Part shown: one piece after another, positions 609 through 21,957 of the stretch | Layout of the letters: each line of letters opens with the position of its first letter | Numbering within the stretch: the stretch's first letter is position 1 | DNA from: Lachnospiraceae bacterium | Lineage (GTDB): Bacteria > Bacillota > Clostridia > Lachnospirales > Lachnospiraceae | Reading direction: 5' to 3' | Length of the DNA: 32,803 nt | Assembly (NCBI GenBank): GCA_017436865.1 | Contig: JAFSCH010000029.1 | Coordinates: 1-32,803, forward strand | The notes under the pieces: model-generated | Told to the model about the DNA's origin: nothing | Database searches by the model: none | The model's input: only the letters and a program-made list of their open reading frames with translations | Program-made: the position numbers and the translations under genes

Positions 609-644
609 AAAAAAGCAGATATCGAATTTGATATCTGCTTTTTT
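609..644 (+). terminator. Intrinsic terminator of the 269 gene
   Basis: GCAGATATC (615-623), loop GAATTT, GATATCTGC (630-638), preceded by an A-run and followed by six T. The A and T runs extend the stem. The repeat copy at 646 begins right after it. Confidence 0.9.
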
Positions 645-645
645 A

Positions 646-738
646 GTAATAGGAAATTGCTGTAACATAGTGGTGGTTAAACAAGAATTTCGACAGAAAT
701 TCTTGCTAGAGATTGCCGCTGGGCAATCTCTTTTTTAT
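646..738 (+). repeat. Two-hairpin dispersed repeat, copy A (type I)
   Basis: A 93-bp unit beginning GTAATAGGAAATTGCTGTAA. It has a conserved single-stranded-looking segment (TAGTGGTGGTTAAA), hairpin 1 CAAGAATTTC-GACA-GAAATTCTTG (682-705), hairpin 2 AGAGATTGCC-GCTG-GGCAATCTCT (708-731), then a T-run and AT. It abuts copy B without a gap. The 3' hairpin plus T-run resembles an intrinsic terminator, but no gene ends directly before it. Confidence 0.85.
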
Positions 739-832
739 GTAATAGGAAATTGCTGTAACGTAGTGGTGGTTAAACAAGAATTTCGCAAGAAATTCTTGCC
801 AAGGTGCGTGCGCTGGCACGCACTATTTTTAT
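739..832 (+). repeat. Two-hairpin dispersed repeat, copy B (type II)
   Basis: Same 5' half as copy A. Hairpin 1 is CAAGAATTTC-GCAA-GAAATTCTTG (775-798), now closed by a GNRA tetraloop. Hairpin 2 has a different stem, (G)GTGCGTGC-GCTG-GCACGCACT (803-824), with the same GCTG loop, followed by ATTTTTAT. It ends 7 nt from the stop of the convergent methyltransferase gene. Confidence 0.85.
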
Positions 833-3908: not shown

Positions 3909-4184
3909 TGCTGTGACATGATAGCGTTGAAACGAGAGGTTGCTACTGTAAGGTAGGTTTTCCGTGGAGCGAATGTCAAGTTAGGAAACTGGCGACAAGT
4001 CACTGTACAAAGCAAAAAAGTCTACTGATATTACAGAAGTAGAAACGACGTGTAAAGTAATGCAATATCGAAAGAGGTATGCCTATATGTTTGGGCGTAA
4101 AATGCATGACACACACGGGAGAGTGTACAGTCACCGCTTGTCGTACTTAGAAATGAAAAGTGCGAAAAGGAGGCGACTTTTTTT
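3909..4184 (+). ncRNA. Structured leader of the S10 operon (candidate r-protein autoregulatory leader)
   Basis: Visible pairings are: TGACAT (3914-3919) with ATGTCA (3973-3978); a long-range stem GCGACAAG (3992-3999) with CTTGTCGT (4137-4144), continued after an internal loop by CTGTAC (4003-4008) with GTACAG (4125-4130); GATATT with AATATC inside it; and an SD-containing hairpin at the end. In E. coli the S10 leader is bound by L4 (rplD); whether L4 or another protein acts here is inference. The region also contains a short open frame at 4087-4200. Confidence 0.7.
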
Positions 4185-20940: not shown

Positions 20941-20970
20941 AAAACCACGTCACATATGACGTGGTTTTTT
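20941..20970 (+). terminator. Intrinsic terminator of the alpha operon
   Basis: AAAACCACGTCA-CATA-TGACGTGGTTTTTT: a perfect stem (CCACGTCA/TGACGTGG plus A/T extension) with a T-run, 23 nt after the rplQ stop. Repeat copy C begins at the next base. Confidence 0.95.
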
Positions 20971-21064
20971 GTGGTAGAAAAGAGCTGTAACGTAGTGGTG
21001 GTTAAACAAGAATTTCGACAGAAATTCTTGCCAAAGTGCGTGCGCTGGCACGCACTATTTTTAT
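20971..21064 (+). repeat. Two-hairpin dispersed repeat, copy C (type II)
   Basis: 94 bp, nearly identical to copy B from CTGTAACGTAGTGGTGG onward. Hairpin 1 has the GACA loop; hairpin 2 is AGTGCGTGC-GCTG-GCACGCACT followed by ATTTTTAT. It is a solo copy in the same orientation as the upstream gene. The remaining gap to 21200 is AT-rich and I see no clear promoter in it. Confidence 0.85.
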
Positions 21065-21805: not shown

Positions 21806-21832
21806 AAAGACCATGTGAATGTGGTCTTTTTT
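21806..21832 (+). terminator. Intrinsic terminator of the J-domain gene
   Basis: AAAGACCA (21806-21813) with TGGTCTTT (21822-21829) and a T-run. Repeat copy D starts at 21834. Confidence 0.85.
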
Positions 21833-21833
21833 C

Positions 21834-21924
21834 GTTAGGAAAGTGCTCGAAATGTAGTAAGTGTTATACAAGAATTTCGCAAGAAATTCTTGCTAGAGAT
21901 TGCCCTGGGCAATCTCTTTTTTAC
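21834..21924 (+). repeat. Two-hairpin dispersed repeat, copy D (diverged type I)
   Basis: The 5' third is diverged from copy A, but hairpin 1 (CAAGAATTTC-GCAA-GAAATTCTTG) and hairpin 2 (AGAGATTGCC-CTG-GGCAATCTCT) are intact, then a T-run and AC. It is followed without a gap by GTAATAG, the start of another unit. Confidence 0.8.
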
Positions 21925-21957
21925 GTAATAGAAAATTGATGTAACGCACTACTTTTA
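21925..21957 (+). repeat. Internally deleted repeat remnant, copy E
   Basis: GTAATAGAAAATTGATGTAA matches the repeat 5' end at 18 of 20 positions and is joined directly to CGCACTACTTTTA, which resembles the type II 3' end CGCACTATTTTTA. Both hairpins would be lost. The stretch 21958-22081 shows only AT-rich sequence. Confidence 0.5.

Follow-up and report, generated by a model that had tools for sequence, protein, structure and literature searches.

A small, probably mobile repeat family sited at intrinsic terminators in Lachnospiraceae

The repeats described here probably belong to a small mobile element that is non-autonomous and homes to intrinsic terminators, a reading to which we assign a probability of about three in four. 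The copies are dispersed, and in some genomes identical copies stand at differing positions. They are placed on the same strand as a T-run, which in most cases is part of a terminator, and adjoin its 3' end; tandem units start at the T-run of the preceding unit. The DNA in which the element was recognised is a 32,803-nt contig stretch (the window) from a 4.2-Mb Lachnospiraceae assembly (G000) of a gut bacterium. A sequence-only reading of the window had described the repeats and their hairpins and overlooked their most informative feature, namely that they insert just where intrinsic terminators end on the 3' side.

Each intact copy is a gene-free unit of about 90 bp in which a lead of about 35 nt is followed by hairpin 1, which is perfect, hairpin 2 and a T-run (Table 1). 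The four copies and the remnant reported earlier were all found in their places, and the remnant is better described as a 3'-truncated fifth copy behind the T-run of copy D. The proposed units are real, but the lead is not their best start: boundaries are best drawn where the upstream T-run ends on its 3' side (645, 737, 20971 and 21833). A host terminator is present immediately 5' of every first copy in the window (A, C and D), and the genes adjoining the copies are unrelated. The hairpin-1 pattern gave four exact matches in the window, compared with 0.01 expected from shuffles. The stem of hairpin 2 is AGAGATTGCC/GGCAATCTCT in copies A and D and GTGCGTGC/GCACGCAC in copies B and C, and its loop reads GCTG in A, B and C and CTG in D. 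RNA folding gave z-scores of -5.5, -4.7, -2.6 and -3.5 for A to D, with 0, 0, 3 and 1 of 200 shuffles folding equally well, and in a terminator scan of positions 590-840 hairpin 2 plus T-run was terminator-like in both A and B. Inspection of the ORF list by eye agreed with the earlier statement that the window holds no transposase. The family was also rightly placed outside the catalogued ones: no Rfam family matched the element in the window at gathering score, and the weak matches in 590-840 were all below the cut-offs. The sole Rfam match of the window at gathering score was an S10-Clostridia ribosomal protein leader (RF03136) at 3919-3998.

Table 1. Element copies and the host terminators preceding them in the window.
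Feature	Position	Strand	Details and basis
Host intrinsic terminator, target of copy A	615..644	+	Stem GCAGATATC/GATATCTGC, T-run 639-644; sequence and terminator test
Copy A	645..736	+	Lead, hairpin 1 at 682-705, hairpin 2 at 708-731, T-run; sequence, pattern, terminator scan, folding
Copy B, tandem, begins at 3' end of the T-run of A	737..830	+	Hairpin 1 at 775-798, hairpin 2 at 804-823; sequence, pattern, terminator test and scan, folding
rplQ intrinsic terminator, target of copy C	20944..20970	+	Sequence, terminator test; orthologous site empty in G014
Copy C	20971..21062	+	Hairpin 1 at 21007-21030, hairpin 2 at 21036-21055, T-run; sequence, pattern, empty-site comparison, folding
Terminator 3' of DnaJ-like ORF, target of copy D	21806..21832	+	Sequence, terminator test; empty in G014
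Copy D, diverged lead	21833..21922	+	Hairpin 1 at 21869-21892, hairpin 2 at 21895-21917 with CTG loop; sequence, pattern, empty-site comparison, folding
Fifth copy, 3'-truncated, lead only, directly behind the T-run of D	21923..21957	+	Sequence

Both stem types proposed for hairpin 2 are present, but they are two of many. Among 107 distinct copies, the 83 in which both hairpins could be analysed (copies without a detectable hairpin were excluded) contained 42 different strings for hairpin 1 and 40 for hairpin 2, a part of which differ just in the loop or in counted length. When hairpin 2 was cut to eight pairs, 23 distinct cores remained, with two to four Watson-Crick types at each position. 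The cells of hairpin 2 were paired in 98.9% of cases, compared with a mean of 48.3% (maximum 67.4%) when the 3' arms were dealt randomly, and those of the 10 hairpin-1 cores in 98.8%, compared with 65.7% (maximum 83.8%); these percentages are high partly by construction because copies without a detected hairpin were left out, which does not affect the range of pair types. The compensated stems thus uphold the earlier proposal that pairing itself is kept through sequence change. The RNAalifold consensus on a MAFFT alignment contained 6 pairs only because the stem types fall out of register, and pairs were therefore counted by script. Some loops occur in both orientations (GCAA/TTGC, GATA/TATC) and one hairpin 2 carries CAGC for GCTG (including L017:2819-2912), which suggests hairpin inversion.

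A shorter form that lacks hairpin 1 was found at nine places, four in G021 (L166-L169), three in G014 (L165, L170, L171) and two in G011 (L177, L178). By eye, these one-hairpin forms are mostly located behind terminators, less clearly so for L165 and L170. Because this form recurs, hairpin 1 looks dispensable.

The element is short, non-coding and multicopy. A BLAST search of the window's own assembly gave 59 matches at E<=10, the last four of which were weak. The covariance-model search that had been suggested as a check did reveal further copies with many compensated stems: a model built from 41 copies of four species, for which E-values are rough, gave 152 matches at E<=0.01 in G000, a number that is near the ceiling since about 150 candidates were scored and that counts C and D twice via a repeated contig. 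At E<=0.001, close relatives had 35 (G011), 24 (G014) and 19 (G021) matches. Model matches occurred in 16 of 37 genomes, a set to which three genomes of other genera (G067, G092, G148) had been added since an earlier draw had shown matches there; within the same genus 13 of 34 genomes had matches, with up to 23 per genome. A one-per-genus draw of the family Lachnospiraceae gave matches in 4 of 150 genomes, including the window's own. As a sign of recent spread, identical twins of 80 nt at another position, tandem neighbours included, were found for 20 of 60 copies in G000, 4 of 15 in G011 and 3 of 5 in G067, and for none of the sampled copies of G014, G021, G027, G029, G348 and G520. No match to the element was found in plasmids, and viral contigs gave no exact match to the lead pattern.

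An artefact of assembly or contamination has a negligible probability. The assembly has 7.68% contamination and one of its contigs (C159) repeats 14.5 kb of the window's end, but the same pattern is present in independent assemblies of other species, and a search of named genomes with the DNA pattern gave 10 stretches in six MAG assemblies, all labelled "Lachnospiraceae bacterium" and four of them from goat gut by contig name. We considered C159 as a strain polymorphism and rejected this, as it simply repeats the window's end at 99.97% identity.

The position of the copies relative to terminators is the property that characterises the family. No more than a few bases separate the start of a copy from a T-run, which is usually part of a same-strand intrinsic terminator, and the copies' own end is terminator-like. 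Since the element ends in its own terminator, tandem copies follow one another. For G000, the target was analysed in the window plus 20 stretches that were picked because they bear copies (397 kb in total), which contained 69 profile hits, of which 63 scored >=30 bits. A strict stem search detected a terminator before 39 of the 50 first copies and 11 of the 13 tandem copies; at random positions the figure was 39 of 4000, and at random positions behind a T-run it was 176 of 1500. Fold energies were calculated for the 62 copies with enough upstream sequence, 14 classed as tandem and 48 as first. All 48 first copies had a T-run within 9 nt upstream, and the upstream hairpin reached -5 kcal/mol or lower in 39 and -10 kcal/mol or lower in 30 of them. 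Control T-runs elsewhere in the same DNA reached these energies in 1985 of 10,137 and in 2.9% of 10,137 cases, respectively, and the opposite side of the element, read on the opposite strand, in 1 of 63 and 0 of 63. A T-run with a hairpin of -5 kcal/mol or lower was also found before 15/15 copies in G011, 12/16 in G014 and 10/17 in G021, and, in smaller samples, 3/5 in G029, 3/5 in G027, 2/2 in G004 and 3/5 in G067. The association has exceptions: nine of the 48 first copies in G000 lack an upstream hairpin at -5 kcal/mol, and among 26 further, mostly diverged matches several have no upstream terminator by eye (for example L113, L116, L118, L127, L130, L133).

Comparison of filled and empty sites points the same way. 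At the rplQ site, the window reads GTGG-TTTTTT, element, T-run, ATATTATTGCAG; in G014 the site reads GTGG-TTTTTT-ATGTTATTGCAG and has no element, which is also missing in G021. This one clean empty site shows that insertion took place at the T-run. In G014 the element is missing from site D as well, but the downstream flank of that site has diverged, and other filled/empty comparisons are blurred by divergence. Other repeats occur near the same gene: behind the same rplQ terminator in G011 there is a different small palindrome, TTTTCTTACATTATAGGAT...TCCGATAATATAAGAAAA (L057), and in several species of the genus (for example L069, L070, L072, L079, L082) a palindromic repeat of the ATTCAGAAgTATAGGA...TTTCTGAAT type lies a short distance past the rplQ terminator.

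Three sites, which come from G000 stretches picked for holding copies, are filled in both G014 and G000, with a similar lead and different hairpins. At these orthologous terminators hairpin 1 or hairpin 2 differs between the two species (L145 vs L202, L038 vs L197, L035 vs L189), reflecting separate insertions or local replacement; local conversion may therefore also act. Such differences would fit a process with no dedicated enzyme, in which a terminator-associated RNA or backup terminator spreads by recombination and gene conversion and is kept at terminators by selection. The terminator-like ends of intact copies and the safety of a location behind terminators fit it too. We nevertheless regard this as quite unlikely: one would not expect selection acting alone to put the left end only a few bases from the T-run, the genes beside the window copies are unrelated, and identical copies at different positions need a copying step.

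The ends of the element bear on its class. Terminal inverted repeats are absent, the mean best end match being 7.94 of 20 compared with 7.61 with shuffled left ends (81 copies). No clear target duplication was found either: for k = 3-8 and at either boundary, 0-3 of 81 copies scored, at or near shuffled levels, and the largest excess was 2 of 81 at k = 5 (shuffled mean 0.12, maximum 2). A T-run stands at each end. The suggestion of a MITE/REP-type element or mobile RNA module therefore holds as far as a mobile repeat is concerned but not for a classical MITE, which is ruled out by the lack of inverted ends and of clear target duplication.

A larger element shares the left end. The pattern TTTT-N5-ATAGGAAATTGC occurred in 26 of 392 genomes of the order, including G000, and in 18 of 173 genera, with the highest counts in G000 (51), G348 (22) and G520 (17). 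A reversed control pattern gave single hits in four genomes, and some single hits of the left-end pattern look like chance. In G348, G520 and other genomes, from further genera of Lachnospiraceae (L265-L284, L239-L264), the pattern marks the start of an element of about 150 nt that contains a palindrome, ATAGGAAA...TTTCCTAT, further hairpins and a terminal terminator-like hairpin. The foot of the palindrome is an A-run that faces the host T-run; in L270 an interruption of the host T-run (TATTTT) is mirrored by a matching change in the A-run opposite it (AAAATA). An upstream hairpin at -5 kcal/mol was present for 4 of 11 copies in G348, 7 of 8 in G520 and 13 of 15 in other genomes. The T-run itself is not independent evidence in this family because the search pattern required TTTT. 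The 12-nt left end and the position suggest that the larger and the 90-nt families have a common origin. In eight larger-family loci, Rfam gave no match within the elements at gathering score; a tmRNA and a group II intron lie beside them. We also followed up 45 viral stretches with the short left-end pattern as a possible phage link, which was rejected: the palindrome arm occurred in 0 of 45 and a GTAGTGG-like chance word in 1 of 45, so that the viral matches are taken as chance.

To explain these properties, we propose that an enzyme acting in trans would recognise a hairpin plus T-run on a single strand. The same structure would serve both as the target and as the element's own right end, and the left end with its conserved TAGGAAATTGC core would be joined to the T-run without target duplication. 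The right end would then require structure and not sequence, so that hairpin-2 stems could drift by compensated change, and the lead core would stay conserved. Host cost would be low because the site lies past the gene's stop signal and the element re-creates one.

For the enzyme class we lean tentatively toward IS200-like Y1 (HUH) transposases, which, acting in trans, would mobilise the element as single-stranded DNA and cleave the target at its T-run. G000 has four Y1_Tnp matches, two of them full length. The absence of target duplications and terminal inverted repeats and the same-strand insertion fit this enzyme class. Upstream sequence could be read for 18 Y1 loci. Seven of them have a left hairpin of the ACCACC.GCTA.GC type, and six of the IS200-like elements at those seven (L217, L218, L220, L221, L298, L299; not L222) are, by eye, located directly behind an intrinsic terminator. 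On the other hand, L215, whose ACCACCGCC hairpin is related, has no terminator in front of it, and the only likeness seen between the ends of the element and those of the resident IS200-like elements is a weak TATAGG-like one, judged by eye. Y1 transposases normally use a left hairpin, which is lacking in the one-hairpin form. Furthermore, Y1_Tnp was present in several copy-bearing genomes besides G000 but missing in eight of those tested (G009, G011, G014, G021, G027, G067, G515, G520). A search for an autonomous parent with the same ends gave partial hits that, on inspection, were 3'-truncated copies or short forms.

The alternative of an RNA route, in which a reverse transcriptase that chooses its targets as group IIC introns do would insert a self-terminated transcript at terminators, making the element a bacterial analogue of a SINE, is less favoured and we consider it unlikely. 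The right end of the element is shaped like an RNA 3' end and G000 has five RVT_1 matches, but RVT_1 was missing in ten of the tested copy-bearing genomes (G004, G011, G014, G021, G027, G031, G067, G069, G438, G537). None of the 51 hairpin-2 hits in G000 is a 5'-truncated copy: lead and hairpin 1 are present in 45, and of the remaining six rows five come from three host terminators and one is an antisense reading. Group II intron RNA domains had no match in the window at gathering score and were not among the weak 590-840 matches.

The copies do not follow the distribution of either Y1 transposase or reverse transcriptase in a survey of a subset of copy-bearing genomes that are drafts and may miss genes. 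Both were absent in G011, G014, G021, G027 and G067, and of these G011 and G067, the latter just 67% complete, have identical copies. For the larger family, G515 and G520 have RVT_1 without Y1, and G069, G438 and G537 have Y1 without RVT_1. What these two routes leave of the probability falls to another enzyme. It is possible, if doubtful, that the family forms a new terminator-homing class in Lachnospiraceae, in which a minimal lead and one terminator hairpin are sufficient, the terminator is both right end and target, a single left end is common to related forms of about 66, 90 and 150 nt, and the machinery is neither Y1 nor reverse transcriptase.

Several known systems share features with the element. 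REP/REPIN and RAYT systems likewise comprise many small extragenic hairpin repeats, but here the target is a terminator and no element copy was found in nine stretches around long RAYT-like Y1 genes. Two such long Y1 genes have GAGCCCTAGGGACGGAGGTTAGGGCTCA-type repeats nearby (L289, L290). Non-autonomous derivatives of IS200/IS605 resemble the element in having hairpins, same-strand insertion and no terminal inverted repeats or target duplications; they differ from it in that no matching parent was found and that its hairpin 1 looks dispensable. IS608 reportedly chooses its target by base pairing. MITEs, according to a review, are short, intergenic and gene-free with stable stem-loops (PMC10969869), as is the element, which lacks their terminal inverted repeats and clear target duplications.

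The nearest known systems are SPRITE, with regard to the terminator-like body, and group IIC introns, with regard to the target. SPRITE of Streptococcus pneumoniae is a small dispersed terminator-like repeat enriched near gene 3' ends, with one 18-bp duplex, a U-rich tract and AAAA/TTTT ends, for which target duplication is not established (PMC3049150). The element is likewise small, dispersed and terminator-like, but by description SPRITE is set apart by one long duplex instead of two short hairpins behind a conserved lead, and insertion at existing terminators is not among the features given for it in the passages covered (PMC3049150). Group IIC introns are reported to insert at intrinsic-terminator motifs (PMC4424553), a class IIC-like feature found also in the element; they have catalytic RNA and usually a reverse transcriptase, whereas the element has about 90 nt and neither of these. 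In the literature covered, with most subscription journals outside its scope, we found no description among work on terminator-targeting repeats or REP sequences in Lachnospiraceae, and only one of five DNA words was found there, in a single unrelated paper.

Elements that choose intrinsic terminators can land safely in a compact genome, and they alter how genes end. If confirmed, the family would tie the spread of small repeats to transcription termination and would provide a natural set of terminators differing by compensated stems. It may also reveal a new enzyme that reads a hairpin plus T-run.
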